From: Beroe forskalii
Taxonomy: Eukaryota > Ctenophora > Nuda > Beroida > Beroidae
DNA: 64,000 bases
Direction of reading: 5' to 3'
NCBI GenBank assembly: GCA_011033025.1
Contig: WFMF01000248.1
Location: 186,001 to 250,000 of the forward strand
Shown: in pieces, positions 14,701 through 35,200 of the stretch
Layout: each line of letters starts with the position of its first letter
Numbering within the stretch: position 1 is the stretch's first letter
Notes under the pieces: model-generated
Seen by the model: only the letters and a program-made list of their open reading frames with translations
Database searches by the model: none
Told to the model about the DNA's origin: nothing
Translations under genes and position numbers: made by a program

Positions 14701-17700
14701 TCACATGATTTTCGAAAGCTTCTGAATACAATTCTCTCGTATCGGTTATCTCGTTTAAACTTCAACCTCTTGAGCACTGGTATATTTGTTTCTCCGAAAG
14801 AGGCTAATATTTCACATCTCCAGCCATTTTCACAAAGTGGCTGGAGGTGAAAGAGAAAGAGACATCGTGATAATCGTTTTGACAAGCAACAAATCACTGG
14901 ACGCTGAACCGTCAGTTTAGGCAAATATTTTGGATATTTCTGATGCATTAAGAAATTTGAACCATAATATGCAATTGGTATTTAAATATTTACTCTAAAT
15001 TTAAGATTCACAATGGTGAAACCACACCCTTTATTAGACAGTATCACATTTTTTTTTTCTGAATTTTTCAAATCGAAATTTGGCGACACTTTTCACAGCA
15101 CTTTCTGTGGAGGATAAAAAGATAAAAAGTAGAAAAAAGATTAATGCCTTTCCTATCGTGAGACTTTACATCTGTTTCCACGTGCCTGTTCGCTAATAGA
15201 GCTCTTAAGTGAGACTTAACACTCAGAGAACAATAAAACAATAACAGCTGACGCAATCATGCATCTGGCTGAGGAACGAAATGTATCACGTGATACCTTT
15301 TCTAAACCCCACGTGTGAAAAACAGACGGTTATATGTATTCAACTTACTACATTGTGCTATAATAATGACGTCATCTTAACCGCCTATATTTCTCATGCG
15401 AGTATTCTCCAAAGTAATTGTGAAAGTACTGAATGGAAGTGTAGTACAAGTTAAATGTTTGTATGTTATTTCTATGGTACTGGTTGCCATGGAAACAAGG
15501 TCAATTACATAATATATAGGTCTCACAGAGCTTGTAAACATAGATACAAACATATAAATAGATACGGTTGTTTGACCTATGAAGTGTTTAAGAAGGAATT
15601 TCATAGCTGACTGATATATCTGGATGTACGCACGTACTATGGGAGACAACTCAGTAGGTACTGTATAGTGTATACAAATACATTGAAAAATGGAGGGAAT
15701 AGTCCTGGATGAATTCATTTGTCAACATTCAGAAGAGCCCATGATTGCATGATTATTCAAGACAAGGCCCTTACTGCACTCATGAAGTGACGAAAATTAG
15801 AAAAAGTTTCTAACACATGATTAAAAACTGAGATTACCTTAGCCATGGAAAGAGTATGGTCTGAGCTTCTTCTGAGCGCTCGTTCGTTCGCTTCATTTTC
15901 TATTCCTACTGGAAACACCTGAAATGGGGAATAGGAAATAAATAAATATGGAGATAAAGATATGGAGTTTAAGACAGGAAGGTAAAGAAATAAGGAGATA
16001 TGAAGATATGAAGATAAAGATATTATAAAGATAAAGATTAATGATCTTTATTCTTTTAATCTTCATCTGAATTCTGAACTTTCGTCCTATAGAAAGTACC
16101 TGAAATGGAATGAAATCATCTTAAATAGGTTCAATTGTCTAATCATCATAAGTAACTGAGAAAGAGTCATCATTGAATTGGTAATTCATTTACACGAGGA
16201 AAGAATCTAATCACAGGCCACCTGTTTAAGGTACTGTGGTGATTCTAATCAGAGATTCAAGTGGTAAACTGTCTATTCATCACGGCATTCAGAGGAAGAC
16301 AGAATTGAATATAAATGAAGAGATTGGCCGGTAGTTTTTGGTTTGAGGAAATGTCCAATAACCATTTCCTTTGGAACAGTGATGTAATTAGGTATCAATT
16401 ATTTTTTTTGGTGCAGCTCATCCAATGTTCCCACTTTCCATGAACCAATGTTCGTGATTTCAATCGCCCTGACGTGTTATAATTATGCCTTATATCTGTT
16501 TCATATTATTACAAATTAATTACAAACTAAGTTACAAAAAGAAGCGATCCCGAAGCTCATTGTTGTCAGTATTATTAATTTACCAAATGTTAATTAATGT
16601 TACCAAATAAGAAAATATGAAATGCGATAAAGATGATAATAATAATTGTCACGTAAATTATAAATAATAATGGTCACGTAAATTGAGAAACGTTTTATGA
16701 TCTACAAAAGCTGTTGGTCACCACCTTAGTCGTCCTATTTCTAATTTAAAGTTAATGAATAATTGCTGTTAAAAATAATTTTCAGTTGATGATTATCGTC
16801 AATTTTTCGTGTAATATAACAGATGAGTTCATTGTCACCGAAATTATATAAATCAGTAAGCTCACTTTTGCTTCACAAAATGAATTTTATTTTGCTTTTC
16901 GTTATACTCTGCCTAATATGTGAGGCTTCACAAATGGAAGAACATATCTTAGGGGAAAAGAAGACAGGGATGCTACCTACTAGTGTTACGGAGAAGCAAC
17001 GGCACAGGAAACAGCAACCTAAGCAACAACAAAAGCAACCTAAGAAGCAACAACAACAGCAACCTGAGCAAGATCATCGGCAACCTGAGCAACAACAACA
17101 GCAACCTGGGCAACAAAAACAGCAAACTAAGAAGCAACAACAGCAACCTGAGCAGCAACAACAGCAACGTGAGCAACAGCAGCAGCAACCTGAGCAAGAT
17201 CATCGGCAACCTAAGCAGCAACAACAGCAACCTGAGCAACAACAACAGCAACCTAAGAAGCAACAACAGCAACCTGAGCAGCAACAACAGCAACGTGAGC
17301 AACAGCAGCAGCAACCTGAGCAAGATCATCGGCAAGCTAAGAAGCAACAACAGCAACCTGAGCAACAGCAGCAGCAACCTGAGCAAGATCATCGGCAACC
17401 TAAGAAGCAACAACAGCAACCTGAGCAACAACAACAGCAACCTGGGCAAGATCATCGGCAACCTAAGCAGCAACAAAAGCAACCTAAGCAGCAACAACAG
17501 CAACCTGAGCAGCAACAACAGCAACCTGAGCAGCAACAACAGCAACCTGAGCAAGATCATCGGCAACCTGAGCAACATCAACAGCAACCTGAGCAGCAAC
17601 AACAGCAACCTGAGCAGCAACAACAGCAACGTGAGCAACAGCAGCAGCAACCTGGGCAAGATCATCGGCAACCTAAGCAGCAACAACAACAACCTGAGCA

Positions 17701-20700
17701 GCAACAACAGCAACCTGGGCAAGATCATCGGCAACCTAAGCAGCAACAACAACAACCTAAGCAGCAACAACAGCAACCTGAACAGCAACAACAGCAACCT
17801 GAGCAACAAACACCCAGCATTCTAGATGAGATGCCTCAGTGTCGCTGTTCAGTACCAGCAACATTCGAGGAGCTGTTCCTTCTCCACAGATTCCGTGTGC
17901 CAAACCTTGGCTTGTGCTACAAATACTGTACCTACATCTGGGACTGCAAGGTCTTTTCCTTCAAGGTTCAGCTACAGGAATGCCTCTTATTCAACGAAGA
18001 TAACGTCACAAAAACATATTGCAGGAGTCAGAGATGATCCCAGGAATCAGTTTCAGTAGGGCTTACAGTTTGGAATGGCCTAAGTTTACAAGGGATTTAC
18101 TTGCTGAAACTTACGGGACCACTGAAAAAGATCCATCGACCCGACTTTTCATTTCCAAAGGGAAGTTCCTGGAACCAGTGTTTGTCTGCCGCACTATGTA
18201 AAAGAACCCACGATCATCGGAAACGTGGCCTATTCTAAAGTGGACTGACTGCTTTAGAGCCACAACGTGGATACTTTCACCATGGAAATACAGAGAATAC
18301 AAGGGGAAACCAGTAATCTGTGTTTTGAGCGCGGAAATGCAATACTCCATAGGTCACAAATTATGGGACTCAAGCCGTGGAAGGTGCAACCAATCTCCCA
18401 CCTTAGTTAATATTGGTTTATATGAGCCACTTGGAGACGATGAGGTGGATATCGTGCGGAAACAGGGCGACAATATCTTCAAACAATCTTACATCCTTTC
18501 ACGAGATAAAATTCGGAGGACGTACACTTTAGAGAGATTAAAATTTGACGAAAAAACGTTCACAGCATGGACAACAGATTTTAGTGGCATATCCATACCG
18601 GTAGCCTCTGAAATGTTGTCAGATTTACGGATATTCCGGCCATACGCCTGGGAAGTAACATGCCCACCCGAGGGATTAGCGGTAAAGCACAGCACAGTGT
18701 ATAACCCAGATGCTGTTCCCATGTTCATGAGAGGGACCAGAGTACGGATTGAGTGTGATAGGGGTTACGGGATTGCGGAATATAACTTCGAGAGAGTCCA
18801 GTATGTGACCTGCAGCAGTGATGTCAGACCCAAGCCATGCTTGAGAATGTCTAACTTCAGTGTAGAGAGTGATACCCCGCAACCCTTTACCACATATTAT
18901 AATGGGATGATATCTCACAACGCCTCAGAAGGGGTGAAAACAGTGGGGCAAACAGTTGATATCACGAAAACTCCTGGGGCAACAGATAATGGTGGTATGA
19001 ATGGTGCTTGCAAAGGGAAGCCCTTGTTTGCGATAGCAAGAGTTGCCATGTTACTCCTTCCAGTGATATTACACTAGAATATCTGCAAATCAAAGAATAC
19101 TAGAATAGGTTCTAGGATTTTGGATTGTTTCTTGGTCAAGGCTTATGAAACGGTATCGAATTTACCGCCCTGGTCAGGTCGGTCACCCCCTGTGGGAAAG
19201 AAATACAAACTTGAGACCTCCAAAAGGTTGGTCATTAAATGAAACTGCTAACTTTTTAAGTTCTTTGGATAACTTTTTACGTACTTTGGACGACTGGCAC
19301 ACCATATCAAGTATAAGGTCTCCACTTAATAAATCTAACTTATAGCTTCACAATAAGCTTACTTAGTAAAATTTGCATTACTAAGACCTCACTGCCCATG
19401 GGTGGAGCAGAAGCCGGGGACAGGGGGTTTTTTCCCCGGCTCAATTTATGGAGCCAGGGAATAGTATCCTTTTTCCCCGGCTCAAATTTGACAAAATTCT
19501 CAACCTCATTTGAGATTTACTTTCAAAGTTACTCTTTCCAGGCAATCTGGCCTATCTATAATTGTGTAAACATTCGCTTTTGTTATTTCAAGGCTACTTT
19601 AAGATTATGACATCATTAACCAATACAGACTTGATTCAGTGTGGTTACTGTACAGGACTCTGTCATTTGATAGGCGGTTTTACCAATCAGTAATTCAGTG
19701 CATAACACAATATTATGATGTCACTTCCATACGCCTATCATTTTTGATATGCTGTCACATGAGAACATGTAGATATTTGTCCGACCTGATTGCTTTAGGA
19801 AAACAAACATCCTTGGAACTGGGAGTGGGAAGCTAATGTTTCATACAACTACGTTACTGTTCGTCTTTCGTGATCAATAAAGTTGTCGGACTGCTATAAT
19901 TAAATTACCATAATTCAATTAGTGTTAATTTTCGAGAGAAAAATTCCCCGGCTCAAAAATCAACTTTGCTCCACCTATGTCACTGCCTATAGCCCTCTCA
20001 CAAAGTGTCAGCATCCGATATAAAGTCCCAGCCTGACAGCCACTCAGCACGTTTTCTATTAAATTAGTAACCTTGTGAGTTTGTATTTTTACGTAAAAGC
20101 TTAGCCTTGGAGGGCAACTGTATATCTAGACCACAAAACCGAAGAAGATCAGTTTGTGTGAAACTTATCAGTGAGATGGCTGCTCATGGAACAGGCAAGA
20201 CATCTGTGGCAACGTCAAGCTCATCTGTTGATGGTAAGCAAAGATCCATGATATCTTCAAAGGCTAAGTTCAGCAAGTTCTCAACAACAGAATCATTCGA
20301 TAAGTCCGAGTCAGGAGGCTATGGTTTCAAGCATTACTACGTACCAACGTACTTTGGAGACAAGAAGGAAACAGAGAAAGACTATGATTGGAACGAATAC
20401 ATGGATATGCCCATGTCGGACCAGCACAAGTTCATTGCTAAGATCAAGATATTCTGCGAGAAGCGATTTGACATTGTGATACTGGGCAAGTCTAACGATA
20501 AGAACAAGAGGTTAGGCAACATGATCTTCAAGTGCTTCCTCAACCCACTGGGAAAGGAGATAGAAGACTATATCGGGGATCAGTACGCAGGAGCACGTGG
20601 TGATACTAACCTCGAACCTCAACATGGAGGACACCAGTGAATCCAAGGCTATCCAGGACATGTTAGCTGTGAAGGAGGACACGCTGAGGTACAGCCAGAT

Positions 20701-25978: not shown

Positions 25979-26767
25979 ATAAATGATATTCAGCAATGGA
26001 CTACCAATTAAAATCTTCTGTACAACATTGGTGTGCTAAAACCTAAAATCTCAGATTTGATTGTATATAGTGTGTATATTCAAATATGTGTGTATATCGT
26101 CTTTTTTAAATTTATTTTTGGTAAATATGAATGAAAATACTCATGAGTAACTGGTCTGCAAACAATGAAAGTTCAAAAGATACTGCTTTATTGATTATTT
26201 TCTGTTTTAACCTTTAGATACAAATATATCACAAGTTAAAACAGTAAATGACATCTATTAGATCTCCATTGATACATGTTATCAATTGTAGATCAATCAT
26301 GCATTGATATCATTACTATCATCTCACAAATATGACTGATTGATCTCTTGAATAATTTATTCCTTATTGTATGTAAATAGGAGACACCACATAAACCTTA
26401 TCCTGCCTCTGCCCTCTTAAAATAGGCAATTGCATACACCAAGCAAATTAATTGATTAACCACTTAAAATTAAGAGTTCCATACTCTTAGATTCCCATAT
26501 TAGACACCTAAAAAAACACGGTAACATAACAATACAATACTAAGAACACTCACCTCTTCACTCAAGTTTATATCAATATTCAAGAAAAATATGCCAAAAT
26601 AATTCAAAGAGAATGAACACATTTGATGTCATCTGTGATTGATCATTCATCATCGCAGTGAAAAAAGAGGTTCTCAACACACGATTAATATAAGTTTCAT
26701 GAGTATCGCATATTTCTGAACACTTTTTACTGACCATGACAGTTTCAACTCGATGAGAAATGAAAAT
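25979..26767. other. 5' region of CSPP1-like gene
   Basis: Upstream, on the - strand, of the CSPP1-like start codon. A GTGAGTG donor on the - strand at 26553 and below could end a 5' untranslated exon (exon end 26554), but no acceptor was assigned. No coding signal. Confidence 0.3.
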
Positions 26768-27482
26768 TGGGTGAGTCTCCCATATAAAAGGGAGCCTTCA
26801 TTATCTATGACAATGACGTCACTCGGAAAAATATAATTAAGCGCACCTAGCGCTTTAAGGACTAGGTATAGGGTTAGGGTCACGATTAGGGTCAGGATTT
26901 GTTAGGGTTAGGATTAAGGTTAGGGTTTTAGTTAGGGCTATGGATAGGTTTAGGATACAGAAAATTGACGTTTAGGTCTGTGACGTCACTCAGAGCCGTT
27001 TATATGGGAGACATACCGAAAATTGCGAGAATCAGCGCCTTGCGCTCGACGCTGATTCGTTCGTTGCTAAACACGTATATTCCTGTTTGGCTCGCGCGAC
27101 GCGCTTCCCCCTTGCTAAACACGTATATCCCTGTCTGCGTTGCGCAGCGCGCTTCCTCAGAACAGGAAAGCGCCGCGCGCGTACACACACCTATGCGGGC
27201 TTAGGAAATTATCTTGGGTATCTCTCCCATATAAACGGCTCTGAGTGACGTCACAGATCTAAACGTCAATTTTTCTGTATCCTAAACCTAACCATAACCA
27301 TAACCAAAACCCTTACCTTAATCCTAACCGACCTAACCCTAACCCTAACAAATCTTGACCCCAATCCTGACCCTAACCCTAGTCCTTAAAGCGCTAGGTG
27401 CGCTTAATTGTTAATTATATTTTTCTGAGTGACGTCATTGTCATAGATAATGAAGGCTCCCGTTTATATGGGAGACCTACCT
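26768..27482. mobile_element. Two inverted MITEs around a GC-rich core
   Basis: A copy of about 250 bases at 26769-27019 and another in inverted orientation at 27226-27482 flank about 200 bases. Each copy has its own inverted ends of the type GTCTCCCATATAAA / TTTATATGGGAGAC. Each contains a TGACGTCACTC motif near both ends and a stretch of degenerate TTAGGGT repeats (CCTAACCCTAACCC on the other copy). The core holds two TTGCTAAACACGTATATYCC motifs and GC-rich palindromes shared with 2829-3199. The arrangement is that of a composite or foldback element. No transposase. Confidence 0.75.
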
Positions 27483-28128
27483 TATTTTGCTAAATAGTAG
27501 GATTTTACCCTACCCTCCGCCGCGCGCCAATTTTTGGAACCACGACCCTCCAAATTTCTGAGCAGGAGGTTAAAGCTTCGCCGCGCAATCATCAGAAGTT
27601 ACACGACCTGTTATTTAGAAATTTAAATTTGACTCTGTGAGTCAAGGAGCAAGCGATCGTTATCCGTGTTAAAAAGTCTAACAAGTGCTCATAAAACCAG
27701 GAATCTGATTAAGTGATTTAAGCAGCACAATGATATCAGTGAAGAGATAATATTAAGGAAGAATATATATTATGCCATTCATTTTGAAACTGTCGGTGGT
27801 AAAATGTTAAAACAGTGATATAAATAGTTAGTGTGTGAGTTAAATTTCATAATTGAGAACTTTTCTTCTCACTTCAATGATGAATGGTATCAATCACAGT
27901 TCACATCGAATGTGTTCATTCTCTTTTTACAAAATACAAAGCCATGATATGAAGCCATAACTGGCAATGATAAGAATAAGCTGCTGTATAAATCCCAGCA
28001 AGCAGTCTTCCTATGAGTTTTACCATTATAATTTTTATGATATGCTTGCTTCTGAATAAATTGTATGTATGCAGTACTATAAATGAAGTGTGGTGCCATG
28101 GTTTAATTAGGAGTTTTCTGTTTTCCAG
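27483..28128. other. Intergenic / 5' region of DHHC-like gene
   Basis: AT-rich DNA between the composite element and the acceptor-like TTTTCCAG at 28121-28128 before the DHHC-like start codon. No promoter motif could be supported. Confidence 0.4.
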
Positions 28129-28139
28129 TTATAGCAACC

Positions 28140-30684
28140 ATGAATAAAGCCATGGTATTGATTGGGTTTTGGACAATCATGCTTCTCTTCATTGACATAA
28201 TACTGCTACATGTTCTATGGGGCAGTGTAAGTCTGATACTTAAACATTCCCTTTGAGAACCTTTTATTTGATTCAATCATCTTGATTCAATTTGGGTTCA
28301 AGTTGGATTCAATCTGGATTCAATCTTGTTATCATATGCAAATGAATTGCAGGATTATGTGTATTTTCTAAAAATTTTTTCTAGCTTTCATTAGTTTTTG
28401 CATTTCAGGGAAAAGAGCTGGCATTCTCTCTACATGCCAGTTTCATGAACATCTTGTTAGTTCTTTGCGGGATTTCATATATCCGTGCTGCTTCTATTGA
28501 ACCTGGATTCCTTCCCAAGCCATCTATTTCTGTGGATTTCTCAGGTAATCAGGGTAATATAATCATAGGAAAATGATGAATTACACCAAAATTCAAAGTA
28601 TTATGCAGGAAATTTCATAGCAAGATAATATTTAGTATGAATGGAAATTTTAACTAACTTTTTTCCAATGTTCTTAGCTACATAATGGAAAATAGTCAGA
28701 AAAATGTTTATGGGTCATCTCTGCAGCCATGTTCAAGAAATCCTATGACAGGATGGTTCAGGGATGGATATGCTCACTATGATAGCAGAGATAGAGGACA
28801 GCATACACTTTGTGCTAAAATGACTGAGGATTTTCTTAACTTCACACGGTCCATGGGCAATGATTTAACCCAACCCAATCCTCCTATGTTTCCAGGACTT
28901 AGAGCTGGGGATTGTTGGGCTCTTTGTGCATCCAGGTGGCTTGAAGCATACAAGGCAGGTTTTGCACCTCAGGTTAAACTAGATGCAACTAATCAGAAGG
29001 CTCTTGACATTGTTCCTTTGAGCATTCTAGAGAAGTTCAATGCTGCAACAGGACAACAAGATCAATGAGAGATTAGACTTTGGATATCTTATCATTTGGA
29101 GAGACATCAGATAAGGCTAATTTTATAGTCCTGATTGATAGATCATTCCTAATCTACCAACAATATAACAGGAATACAATCTTATTCGATATATCATTTT
29201 ATTCAATAAACATTATATCTGATAAATAGTTAGTGGGAGATAATGTTTGAATTTAATAGCTAGACAAAGCTTTTAAACCATATTCTTTTTACAAAAATAT
29301 ACAATAAGTACTTGAAAACTTTTGAGTTGGTTTTTATTCATGTAAGTATGTAGTATCATTTATCTTCTCAGATTTAGATTATTATCAAGAATTTCATAAG
29401 TGGAATTATCAAACTTAATCAATAAATCACTGTTTTAATGATCATTCAGAATAATTCAATACCCGAACTTATAAACGATGATAGGAATATTTTAATATGT
29501 TCCATTGAGTCATTGACATGAATCTCTAATCGACTTTAAATCAAACAAGATATGTATAGCAAATGGTAATTGTTATTTCAGATGTCCTTCATCTTAGAAC
29601 CTAATACCTATCATATATGCATCTGTTGGCCATGGTGAGTTGCTTCTCATTTAATGCAAATATAAAACCGTTCAGATATAGATCTAACTAAAGACATCTC
29701 TACCAAGTCAAGCTGGGTTGTGTGTCGGAGCTGCTCTATCTTTACTCCTCCCCTCACGAAACACTGTTCTCTGTGTAATGGGTAAGGGATACTGTAGATC
29801 ATAGACTTGAAATGACCAAGTAATGATGATGATACCTATACAGTAAAACTTGTTTTAATTCAGTGACTGTGTCTTTACTACAAGAGCACCATATCATTCT
29901 TGTAACATCTGTCATGTGTGACCTAGCAATGGATTGTACATTAAACCATGACCAATTCATCACTCTTCCATTCCCTGCAGATGTCTCGTGCATTCCCGTG
30001 GACATTGGTACGGTTTGAGGACCTGTGTTGGGCTGCTCAACTACAAGTTCCTCCTCCAACTTCTCTTCTGGGGTGTGGTGTTCTCACTTTACACCTTGTT
30101 CGTGGGAGTTAGCAACCTCTGGGATGCTCCTCTATGGTATGTTCAGATTTTATTCTATTAACCTTAATAAGTTCGTAAAAGTAAAGTAATAAAAAGAATT
30201 TAGTTCAGTTTCAATACGTACAAGCTATTATCTTTCTATGCATTCCTTTATGTCCATAAATTTCATGAATTTGCACACTTCAGAACACATTACTCTACCT
30301 AGAATAATACTTCAGCATGATATCTAGTACCCTGAGTATATTCTCTGCTGCAGTGCTGTCCTTCTTGTTACTCGTTGAGGTAGGTTCACAATGTATTTGG
30401 GTATTTCAGGATCCAACTTTAGCCTTTAAATCAATTCTAGAATCTATAAAGTCTTGATTCGAGTTCAAGTGATGAAATCAGGCAAGTTGATTACATATAA
30501 TCTAACACCCCCTAACGCCCCCAATAAACACCATGATATATCTCATCAGATACAAAACATCAGTACTATGGAGGGAGGTTGGAAAGTCTCCATACCCAAG
30601 GTATTCGGACGAGGCAGCAGAATCTTCTGGATGTTTCCCTGCTCCTCATCTGTTTCATCCAAACCTGGTGTAGCGGATTTGTGA
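28140..30684 (+). CDS. DHHC-family membrane protein with RGHW in place of DHHC
   Basis: Six exons keep phase: 28140-28226, 28409-28544, 29682-29781, 29981-30136, 30328-30379 and 30550-30684 (TGA). All have GT-AG junctions, giving 221 residues. Exon 1 is a transmembrane segment (LIGFWTIMLLFIDIILLHVL). Exon 2 has a second one and then SIEPGFLPKP, like the D-P-G motif. Exon 3 starts the zinc-binding Cys-rich domain: VCRSCSIFTPPLTKHCSLCN. Exon 4 continues with GCLVHSRGHWYGLRTCVGLL, then NYKF and a third membrane segment. Exon 5 supplies the fourth. The family pattern C-V-x3-D-H-H-C-P-W-x3-C-V-G is matched in spacing, but DHHCPW reads RGHWYG, so the palmitoylated Cys is missing. The usual TTxE motif is also not evident. 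DHHC proteins are S-acyltransferases of internal membranes; this one is probably a pseudoenzyme. Phase and spacing are fully kept, which argues against simple decay. A DUF2237 gene sits in intron 2. Confidence 0.72.
28685..29068 (+). CDS. DUF2237 protein, intronless, nested
   Basis: A single open frame of 127 residues (start ATG 28685, stop TGA 29066-29068). It matches the DUF2237 family over its full length. Visible family features are KNVYGSSLQPCSRNPMTGWF, RDRGQHTLCAKMTEDFL, SMGNDLTQPNPP, FPGLRAGDCWALCASRWLEA and FAPQVKLDATNQKAL. DUF2237 proteins are small, found in bacteria and eukaryotes, and have no established function that I can cite. The conserved Cys and Trp residues are present, so the protein looks intact. 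It lies on the same strand inside intron 2 of the DHHC-like gene. An in-frame TAA directly upstream (28682-28684) shows it is not an exon of that gene. The lack of introns suggests a retrocopy or an old intronless gene. An AATAAA at 29205-29210 is a plausible polyadenylation signal. Confidence 0.9.
   Translation: MENSQKNVYGSSLQPCSRNPMTGWFRDGYAHYDSRDRGQHTLCAKMTEDFLNFTRSMGNDLTQPNPPMFPGLRAGDCWALCASRWLEAYKAGFAPQVKLDATNQKALDIVPLSILEKFNAATGQQDQ
29205..29210 (+). terminator. Polyadenylation signal of DUF2237 gene
   Basis: AATAAA 137 bases after the DUF2237 stop codon, in AT-rich sequence. The position is suitable, but usage is inferred. Confidence 0.5.
29211..29681 (+). other. Rest of DHHC-like intron 2
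   Basis: AT-rich sequence between the DUF2237 gene and exon 3 of the DHHC-like gene. No feature is supported. Confidence 0.4.
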
Positions 30685-32208
30685 GGGGGGAGGGTGAATT
30701 GTCAATGTATGCTGTGTTGCTAGAAGTTCTCGACATAAGAATGTTTAGAATGAACAGTGAAACAGACAATAACAATGTTAAGTGTGTGTTTATGTAGTTA
30801 CGTATGGTATTTAAAGTAAAACAGATGGATTGGTCAGTAGTTTGGGTATTTTGAGTTAGATATGTATGAATGTTTGAAGGGTGTTATTACATTGTTCATC
30901 TGTCTACGATAAAAATTCCCTATGCCACTCAATAATGTTGTGAAACATGATATTAGTGATTTAATGCGACACTGGATACAGTGAGCTCATACTGCGATGT
31001 AGAAAGTATTCTACCAAGTTACTCAAGCTCACACGACTTCTGTATAAAATTCTGTATAAAAGAAATTCAAAGTTCAGTTTCACCTTATCTGTTCACTCTT
31101 CAGTCTTATCGTAATTGTCTTCAAATTATGTTAGATTCTTTACATCAGCTAGATTCTTTCCATCAATTAGAGAACTATTAGAATAGACGCCAGACGGTAA
31201 TAAAACTATAAAAAGTTATATTTATGCTGTGTTTTGTAACTTTATATGCATTTGATAAGATAATATTTATTTTCTAAGTATTGCATGAAGGTAGATTTTG
31301 TGTAATTTGTAATATTTGTTTATTTCTGTTTTGAGTACTGTAAAAATCATCATAACAAACGCCAAATGAAATGAATATGCGATATGAAATGAATTTGCGA
31401 TATTTATGTTCTACTATTGCTATGAATTGTTCAGTTTTATTCCAGCTGAGCTGTTGGAAAATTGTCGAGTCACAATCGGAACACTTCTTTTGTAATTTTA
31501 CAAAATGAAAAGATCGCAAATGCTATGATATGTGTAGCTAATTACCTTTCCACTGGCAATTATGTGGTTGCATTTAACCAATTAAACTCATCACATTGAT
31601 ATATCACAATTTGCAACTTTGCAGTTTTGCGAAATGGCTAAATAATTGGAAATCATTGTTACATTTACACGGTTTTGTTTCGTATAATTAATACATTATT
31701 AAGTTGTATATATATCCCTCAACATTTAGGTTCGTACACATTACTGGTTTGTTCGGATGATAATATTTAGTTACAGTTTTACTTTTAAAGGTTATTCTGT
31801 GATTTATTTCTACGCCTTTATTTCTCTGTACTGTGTCCAACTTCAAATGTAATAATTTCTATATGATTTTTTGCAGACTCCTTCCCCTGATGAAACTTGA
31901 GAGAATAAATAAATTACTCATCAATTATGCGACTCTTATTCAACGACCCGATCCGTGAAATCAGAAACTTGAGAGCTTGTGTTATATTTAGAATGATTTC
32001 ATAGTTTGGAAACCTACTGTGATTATTCACTAATAACGTCATAGGCTTGCGCCTATCAATATCGGGTCCATTTTGTGATACCTCCAGAGGGCGTAGCCCT
32101 AGGGATACGTCCGGTTTAGACCCGCTGATCGTACGGTGATGGACTAAACCTTTAGGAACCGATCTAGTGTCTCTGCATCATGCTATTAAATTGTAGGAAG
32201 GACACAGA
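30685..32208. other. Intergenic between DHHC-like gene and BPNT1
   Basis: AT-rich sequence with no supported gene. GAGAATAAATAAATTACTC near 31901 could hold a polyadenylation signal of a longer DHHC-like transcript. A Leu-rich reading frame near 31080-31190 has no family resemblance. Confidence 0.4.
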
Positions 32209-35200
32209 ATGGCTCTCATGAGGACTATGGCTGCGTGTGTGACTCTGGCTGAGCAGGCTGGTAATGTCCTGCGAACTATCATGGACTCAGGCGAGTTGGA
32301 ACTTGGAAACACACAATTTTCAGGATCTCGCGAATTGTGACGCAATGATTTTTTCATCCTAAAGATGAAATGAAGAATCACGAATTGCTAAAATCTAAAT
32401 CCTTGTCCCAACCCTCGAACTCTGAATTGCCAAATTAAATCCTCGTGTGATATTCAGACCCATTTAAATCATACCTTATCATGAAATAATGTCTTTTGAA
32501 ACGTCCATTTCGCCCCTTATAACACCAGGTCTATGCAGGTAACCTTGGTATAGTGGACAAGGGCGGACAGAACAACCTGCAGACTAAGGCAGACAAGGAG
32601 GCTCAGATCCTCATTGTAAGCAGCCTCCTCCACCACTTCCCAGGGGTAAGTGGTGTCTGAGTAGCCTGAACATTGATTATTTTATGTGGAATGGTCTATA
32701 ACGTAGTGGTTAGAGTTAAGGAGTTAAGATAAGGTCTGGTTTCATTATGGTTAGGGTAAGGGTCTATGAAGTTGTTAGAGTTAGGGAAGTAGGGATTTAG
32801 AGTTAGCATAGAAAAATGAGACAATGAAGTTTCGGATTCATCGATTTGACCTTCGCGGAAGACCGATGATTATATTACTGACAAAATTTCTTCATTGAAT
32901 TTAAACCTCTACCGGGCAGATGAAAGTGATAGGCGAAGAGGATGACGTGGACATGACAACTGACGAGGCGAAGGCGAGTGTTGTGCGTGACGTAACGCGC
33001 GGTGACGTCACCAGACACACGTGTCCTAAGGAGCTCAGTGGATTGACGGAGCAGGACTTTGTTGTTTGGGTGAGTTTCAGTTTTGGGTGTCCACTGTCCA
33101 GTTCTTACCTAATTAAACGCTGAATTGATGACTTGTAACCGCCTATAATTCTTCGTTATTATCCTATAGTGAAACACTGAAACAACACTTATCTCGCGGG
33201 TAGATCCATGGAATCGCCAAGTTAGTAGTCAAATCACACGCTGATTGTTAAAGAGGACCTGTTCGTTAACACTCTGTCAATATAAACATATAAACTCTAA
33301 CCCCAGGTAGACCCGCTGGATGGTACTAAGGAGTACACGGAAGGTAGAAAGCAGGATGTCACAGTCCTCATTGGTATTGCAGCTGCAGGGGAAGCTATTG
33401 GAGGAGTCATTCATCAGCCTTGGTACCTAACTCCTGAAGGTATGCTGACTGTTTTTGATGACAGATTTGAATATTTATCGTGTGATAATGTAATACTGAG
33501 ATCTTCTGATTTCACTTGAGTACCATTCAGGATTCTGAGTGCTCCAGAACTTCAATACCTGATCCTAAGGGAATTAATAAATTCAGCCTTTGTAGGCGAT
33601 TAAACATTTGCTTCATTACATATTTTGAATCTCACTATATCTTTCTGGACAATCCATCCACTGAACCACCCGATTTTGGAAAAACGTGAATTTTTGGCTT
33701 CTATAGCCTGTTAGAAAACTATGTGTTCTGAAAACACTGTTCTCGGATTGCCGCATCATCCGACACCCCCTGAAGGAAAGGAGTGTGGGAGGACGCTGTG
33801 GGGAGTGGTGGGGCTGGGTGGGTTTGGTTTCAACAGAGTTCCTGTTCCCGAGGACAGGAAGATCATTACCACCACCCGCTCTCACATGCAGCAGTCTGTC
33901 GCGGTAAGGAAACTTATATTGATGGTAGAGTTATTATACTAGTGTAAAGTAGCAGTCCACTGATCGCTCCTGGGTGCTTTGGTGGTTCTCCCTGTCCATG
34001 AGCAGTGTACCAGGGTGCCAGGGTGCTAGGAATTGCTAGTTACTACTTAACTTGCTCAAGGTGGAACATAAAATTGGTCATGTCAATTCCCTCATAATAC
34101 AACAGAACTCCCTCAAACAAAACCCTCTTGGTGTGATAACGTTCATTATTGGCAAATAATGAACGTTTTCACACCTTACGGTTTCGTTCGAGGGAGTTGT
34201 GTTATATGAGGGAACTTGTATAACTATGCTTTCATGTTTCACCAATACGACTCACAACCTCCATTATTAAGAACCTCATGAAACTTCAGTAAATTTTATA
34301 AGCTTGAAGCTCGCATTATTAACTAATAAAAGCAGTTAGGTTTGATGTTGAGCTACGTTGTTCTTATATTTCAGCGCTCTTTGTCATATGCAAGTTTATA
34401 CATTTCCTTAACCACCCAAGTAAACGCTCTCCATTCTATTTTATCTTTTTCTATATTTTTATTATTTGGAAGCGTTCGGTAATTACAGTACACGATACTG
34501 TACAAGTTTAGTTTTGATGGAGATATTCTTGCAGCAACGATTTCTTTAACATCTCCGGCTGCGATTCTCTTTTTGAGGCTTTCTTCTTGATTATGGGCAA
34601 GAATTCCTTTCTTGTCCTTTCTTGTTAGATTGGCAAACAGTTAACGTGCGAGTGGATTGTACATGCCATAACTCAGATTTCTAAGCTAGTAGACGTAAGG
34701 GCTATAAATGCTCCCTAGTTTTTAGGGGGATTAAAACCTAGGGGGAGGCCGTATACCCCTGTGTAAACTGTAGAGCAGTCCCTTCTATCCTCCTCAGGAC
34801 TGTGGAGCAGTCCTTTCCCTCGAACTCTCAATGACAATGGAATTTAGAGTTGCCATCCATCCCCGAAAGGGGATGTGATGGTCAGTTGGGTTAAATTGCA
34901 CGAAAAAAAAAGAAAAAAGCCCCGTCTATCCTCCTCCCTCAGGACGCCATTGCAGCGTGTGAACCTACCAGTGTTATCAACATCGGAGGGTCAGGTAGCA
35001 AGTGTATTCTGGTAATTGAGGGAACTGCTGATGCCTACCTCTTCGCTTCCCCAGGTACGATATTTATATGCACTTAAATTCGTAATTCTGGGCATGTAGC
35101 AACTAACCCCATTTTCCGGGATTTTAAATACGGAATTCCGCTCGGGAATCCCGCGCAGTTTTCAGGGCATGTGGCCAAAGGGTTATAGAACCCTCTGACG

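Follow-up and report, generated by a model that had tools for sequence, protein, structure and literature searches.

In human DHHC20, the Asp, first His and Cys of the DHHC motif (D153, H154 and C156) are the catalytic residues (PMC10622425, PMC8059564). According to one of these papers, D153 polarises H154, H154 deprotonates C156, and H155 binds zinc, while W158 has been proposed as the gate of the acyl cavity and acyl-CoA is bound at its phosphates by positively charged residues in the domain (PMC10622425). The two zinc sites of DHHC proteins are described as being formed by six Cys and two His residues (PMC7586229). Motif variants that are still active have been reported, including DHYC in the yeast proteins Akr1, Akr2 and Pfa5, and DQHC in human DHHC13 (PMC4192757, PMC8107437).

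The best documented non-catalytic DHHC protein appears to be GABPI (CG17257) of Drosophila melanogaster, which carries DHHS and was judged inactive (PMC4192757). A second paper calls it non-enzymatic, lists a wide range of interactors for it and raises a possible role as substrate presenter (PMC9374236), and it is described as being required for the activity of the glycosyltransferase beta4GalNAcTB, without palmitoyltransferase activity of its own (PMC6258472). As GABPI already shows that this kind of protein exists, the surprise offered by a further case is limited. Non-catalytic members may be overlooked, because the family is counted as enzymes by motif and surveys drop members that lack it. 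One family survey removed hits without the DHHC motif (PMC5359973), and another study removed sequences without conservation in DPG, DHHC-CRD or TTxE (PMC4109852). No report of an RGHW-type or fully stripped DHHC member appeared among the papers listed in searches of the open-licence literature on non-catalytic or variant DHHC proteins and on GABPI.

Gene structure and the RGHW site

The window, the whole 64-kb stretch of Beroe forskalii DNA that was analysed, carries a DHHC-family gene in which RGHW stands in place of the motif. The gene (28140-30684, + strand) has six exons and five introns, all GT-AG. Joined, the exons comprise 684 bases and are in phase, specifying 227 amino acids and a stop, or 225 amino acids if exon 3 uses an acceptor 6 nt downstream, at 29682. 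The features of the locus are:

28140..28226, + strand: exon 1, with the start codon and hydrophobic segment 1; 29 codons, phase 0; donor AGT/gtaagt
28409..28544, + strand: exon 2, with hydrophobic segment 2; acceptor tttcag, donor CAG/gtaatc
28545..29675, + strand: intron 2, which houses the nested DUF2237 reading frame
28685..29068, + strand: intronless, complete DUF2237 (PF09996) reading frame inside intron 2, separate from the DHHC protein
29676..29781, + strand: exon 3, with the first part of the Cys-rich domain (C91, C94, H104, C105, C108)
29981..30136, + strand: exon 4, with C111, H118, C125, the RGHW site, CVGLLNYKF and hydrophobic segment 3
29997..30008, + strand: RGHW (residues 116-119), replacing DHHC, from the spliced protein and its alignment to DHHC20
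30316..30379, + strand: exon 5, with hydrophobic segment 4 (mean hydropathy up to 2.03); acceptor cttcag, donor GAG/gtaggt
30550..30684, + strand: exon 6, with STME, a VFG..FW.FP stretch and the stop codon

Pfam DHHC (PF01529) was the only Pfam family found in the 227-residue protein (35.1 bits, E 1.6e-8), and exons 3 and 4 alone scored 45.6 bits (E 9e-12); since both scores exceed the cut-off of 28.7 bits, the family assignment is not due to chance. Among the 11 phmmer matches listed against sequences of solved structures, eight were DHHC enzymes, headed by yeast ERF2 (E 1.1e-8) and followed by ZDHHC5 and DHHC20. The alignment to ERF2 starts at residue 12, spans EPG and reaches into the Cys-rich domain, and the probable membership of exons 1 and 2 in the gene rests on this alignment, on phase and on hydrophobic segment 2. 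Four hydropathy peaks were found, a pair on either side of the Cys-rich domain, and the predicted topology has the order seen in the family; the peak in exon 1 reaches a Kyte-Doolittle 19-residue mean of 2.51. EPG (residues 60-62, exon 2) and STME (residues 188-191, exon 6) are the counterparts of the DPG and TTxE motifs, respectively, and each keeps part of its motif. The VFG..FW.FP stretch in exon 6 resembles the C-terminus of DHHC20 in a second, non-significant phmmer stretch (residues 200-218), and the C-terminal tail past the TTxE counterpart is shorter than that of DHHC20. At the position of the PaCCT Asn (N266 in DHHC20), reported to be important for structural integrity (PMC8059564), a non-significant alignment places Ser. 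The likely loss of this Asn would count against full structural conservation of the RGHW protein.

Exons 3 and 4 join in phase (AAT GG/A TGT) to give HCSLCN-G-CLVHSRGHWYGLRTCVGLLNYKF, and the spliced protein reads C91RSC94SIFTPPLTKH104C105SLC108NGC111LVHSR116GH118W119YGLRTC125VG. Aligned by phmmer with human DHHC20, the protein shows the same Cys and His spacing and has R, G and W in place of D153, H154 and C156, while the His of RGHW (H118) aligns with the zinc ligand H155. By this alignment, eight of eight zinc ligands (six Cys and two His, in two predicted CCHC sites) are kept at exact spacing. The gate residue W158 is also lost, and 11 of the 13 residues between C148 and C162 are changed, with length and frame unaltered. 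Exon 3 has T and L where the family has R/K135 and R138, which we take to be among the basic residues that bind the acyl-CoA phosphates.

The main points of a preliminary description of this DNA held up: a DHHC-family gene with RGHW for the catalytic tetrapeptide, exons 3 and 4 in phase with the exact Cys spacing of the family, and six exons that are open and in phase with four hydrophobic segments. Its count of 221 codons must be corrected to the 227 codons plus stop (or 225) given above, and the start of exon 3 that it placed at 29682 stands as a possible alternative acceptor, the other acceptor giving 29676. It made no mention of the His aligned with H155, or of the DUF2237 frame in intron 2. 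It also held that an unseen extra exon supplying DHHC would overturn its reading; this was looked for and none was found. The 64-kb window held no exact match to GAYCAYCAYTGY, and its 48 matches with one or two mismatches compare with a shuffle mean of 52.8. Scanning 26000-34000 in six frames, both for tetrapeptides resembling DHHC and for C-x13-C-V/I/L-G, recovered the RGHW exon only, and an alternative exon was rejected on both searches. No stops, frameshifts or broken splice sites were detected in the six exons and five introns, and no second copy or haplotig of the locus was found, the DNA of 29570-30860 matching only itself in the assembly.

The nested DUF2237 frame scored 152.2 bits across profile positions 1-114 of 115, and was the one match to this family in the genome search. 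It lies on the same strand within intron 2, and transcription of the DHHC gene has to pass through it. An AATAAA occurs 3' of the frame at 29205 (the hexamer is also present elsewhere nearby), and such a possible polyadenylation signal in intron 2 could shorten DHHC gene transcripts. The DUF2237 gene has an acceptor-like ttcttag and a TAATG overlap, which may hint at transcription shared with exons 1 and 2. A fusion protein made by splicing exon 2 to the DUF2237 frame was rejected, as a stop is reached within three codons (by eye). Elsewhere in the window, what looks by eye like a long inverted repeat element lies at 26760-27480: two near-complementary stretches, several hundred bases in length, that contain TTAGGG-like and AACCCT-like runs. 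A Q/P-rich repeat frame at 16820-19077 ends in a weak match to the PAN domain (21.0 bits, against a cut-off of 21.4), and the long frame that comes next has no Pfam match.

Kept and lost positions, and the other DHHC genes of the genome

The 21-position family consensus quoted in PMC4192757 served as the reference. The RGHW protein keeps 12 of the 21 positions, namely the eight zinc ligands together with P136, V163, G164 and N167, and has lost nine (R/K135, R138, D153, H154, C156, W158, V/I159, N161 and F171). All eight ligands are kept, compared with four of the 13 other positions (one-sided Fisher p = 0.0024), and this selective keeping of zinc ligands is, judged from the alignment, not the pattern expected of random decay; the preliminary description, on the grounds of the open frame and the membrane segments, had likewise suggested a retained protein. 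Under a neutral model, the probability that the eight ligands are kept and D, H and C lost was at most 1.6e-3 at any distance (maximum at 0.14), and jointly with an open frame of 227 codons it was 1.8e-5 at distance 0.1 and 1.2e-6 at 0.18; the model (HKY) assumes gradual change without indels, and its figures would not cover one local event confined to exon 4. As R138 and R/K135 were lost in exon 3, the loss was not one local accident in exon 4. Third-position GC was 0.50 in the RGHW gene, 0.27-0.37 in the introns, 0.49-0.80 in ten paralogue exons and 0.305 in the DUF2237 frame; as the last of these, a surely coding frame, falls below the RGHW gene, this measure decides nothing on neutrality.

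Matches to PF01529 in the assembly led to 16 other loci, representing about 14 independent ones because the pairs on contigs C524 and C3 are near-identical. The motif reads DHHC in 15 of the 16 and DHHN in the remaining one (C891), so that D, H and H are present in every case. Rows for the first half of the domain came from nine of the 16 loci, the others being omitted because the exon was incomplete or not in hand, and paralogue splice joints were judged by eye; R138 is present in eight of the nine rows and R or K at 135 in seven. Among weaker candidates, C336 lacks the Cys-rich domain and C658 showed no motif in the scan, while C183 and C611 lay outside the census reading. The nearest paralogues share 27-31 percent identity with the RGHW protein over 50-60 amino acids. 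In the RGHW gene a phase 2 intron precedes the C148 codon by one base, an arrangement shared by C394 and C245 (read by eye). Because the exons of these two paralogues start at the same place and phase, the RGHW gene is, on intron position, an old member of the DHHC family and not a retrocopy.

The DHHN locus (C891, 539900-549800, reverse strand; L060, also L033) continues with W-FDQCVG in the next exon (by eye). Its third membrane segment runs into an in-frame TGA, before which no GT donor was seen, and stretches resembling TM4 and PaCCT lie downstream of that stop. It is possibly a second non-catalytic member, or a relic. The catalytic Cys is replaced in both this locus and the RGHW gene, but C891 changes only the Cys, its other motif residues being recognisable, and its frame stops after the third membrane segment. 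With its DHHN motif and in-frame stop, C891 indicates that DHHC genes can decay in this lineage. The near-identical DHHC gene pairs, each on a single contig (L019/L020 on C524 and L028/L029 on C3, about 11 kb and 55 kb apart), may be recent duplications or collapsed haplotypes. With 104 homeodomain matches, the assembly is recognisably that of an animal. On another contig (L036, C1134:40-1344), a COX1 was observed that is AT-rich, very divergent and contains four in-frame TGA codons; the DNA after it is mostly non-coding and AT-rich, and the contig might represent contamination or a mitochondrial chromosome of an unusual kind.

Competing explanations

With modest confidence, we favour the explanation that the RGHW gene encodes a pseudo-enzyme: a member of the DHHC S-acyltransferase family that has been retained without catalysis and acts through binding. 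From the protein sequence, the family fold is predicted to be kept, with four spans, both zinc sites of the Cys-rich domain, and what is left of DPG and TTxE; the alignment of H118 with the zinc ligand H155 makes this structural reading much firmer. That the protein is expressed, folds and has lost its activity we infer from the gene. As the catalytic Asp, His and Cys and the conserved basic residues are gone, no acyl-enzyme would be expected to form, and acyl-CoA binding would probably be poor. Action would most likely be by binding, with a client protein presented or piloted, or by pairing with an active DHHC enzyme; both the role and the partner are guesses, for which GABPI and the fly glycosyltransferase provide the model. 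A more specific proposal, that selection kept the double-zinc membrane scaffold while everything used in catalysis was shed, from Asp, His and Cys to the gate Trp and the basic residues by the first zinc site, is offered more tentatively, as a substantial possibility.

The most serious alternative is a young pseudogene, one whose catalytic function was lost too recently for stops or frameshifts to have built up. The joint loss of catalytic, gate and acyl-CoA-side residues and the largely altered stretch from C148 to C162 would fit such a history; C891, with its DHHN and its stop after the third membrane segment, adds to its plausibility, and transcription may be hindered by the DUF2237 gene in intron 2. 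Set against this are the ligands kept as a class while most other consensus positions were lost, the intactness of five introns and the whole frame, and the low probabilities of the neutral model, which become lower still when the open frame is included and would not apply had the motif been lost first in one local event. On balance we consider a young pseudogene less likely, and the choice between it and a pseudo-enzyme rests on the pattern in this one gene. An acyltransferase that has dispensed with the acyl-enzyme, the substrate attacking acyl-CoA directly, seems improbable. It draws on Swf1 and Pfa4, which are described as staying partly active with Cys changed to Arg (PMC8107437), and on this account the earlier statement that catalysis should be impossible was too strong. 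Those mutants, however, keep the Asp and first His, both of which are replaced in the RGHW protein along with W158, R138 and R/K135, and mutation of the first His of Erf2 is reported to have abolished transfer to Ras (PMC8059564).

Two further explanations concern the origin of the RGHW stretch. That it is a sequencing or assembly error, the true gene reading DHHC, would be helped by the presence of the locus in one copy only, but isolated errors would not change so many residues between C148 and C162 in frame and at the same length, and R138 and R/K135 were lost in another exon too; we consider this very improbable. Least credible is a microinversion of about 38 bases within exon 4 that destroyed the motif. 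One reverse frame, VLKPYQCPREC, is reminiscent of VLKMDHHCPW, but 15.5 percent of 3000 shuffles scored as high as its 15.9 against the profile, as did 13.5 percent of 3000 pieces drawn at random from the window, and one codon would have to go on one side and one be gained on the other. The profile consisted of 13 rows, in three of which (C275, C3 and C1024) the first few residues were joined across an unverified splice; these joined residues were excluded from the later paralogue-row and neutral-model analysis. A templated replacement from nearby DNA was rejected, as the best ungapped match of the 39-base stretch was 22/39, compared with 20-24 in three shuffles, and no exact match of at least 12 bases to it was found elsewhere in the window.

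Comparison with described DHHC proteins

If the retained pseudo-enzyme is the correct explanation, the DHHC fold serves a purpose that is independent of acyl transfer. With all zinc ligands kept and all catalytic residues lost, the two jobs of the domain would be cleanly separated, and the RGHW protein would be a natural tool for asking what the scaffold alone does, in a role that is directly testable.

The RGHW protein shares with DHHC20, ZDHHC5, ZDHHC9 and ERF2 the eight zinc ligands at exact spacing, the CVG..NYKF stretch and four predicted spans, while their DPG and TTxE correspond to its EPG and STME. It is unlike the DHHC S-acyltransferases in lacking the catalytic Asp, His and Cys as well as W158, R138 and R/K135, and in its short C-terminal tail. 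The active variants Akr1, Akr2, Pfa5 and DHHC13 keep the Asp and Cys, whereas here only the zinc-binding His of the motif is kept. GABPI is, like the RGHW protein, a DHHC-family membrane protein in which the catalytic Cys is gone, but the one change in its motif is from Cys to Ser, D, H and H being intact, while the RGHW protein replaces D, H and C; GABPI has also been described as six-pass, in contrast to the four spans predicted here. The likeness would therefore be one of mode of action, by analogy and not by orthology, and the RGHW protein, if a pseudo-enzyme, would be a more complete one than GABPI.
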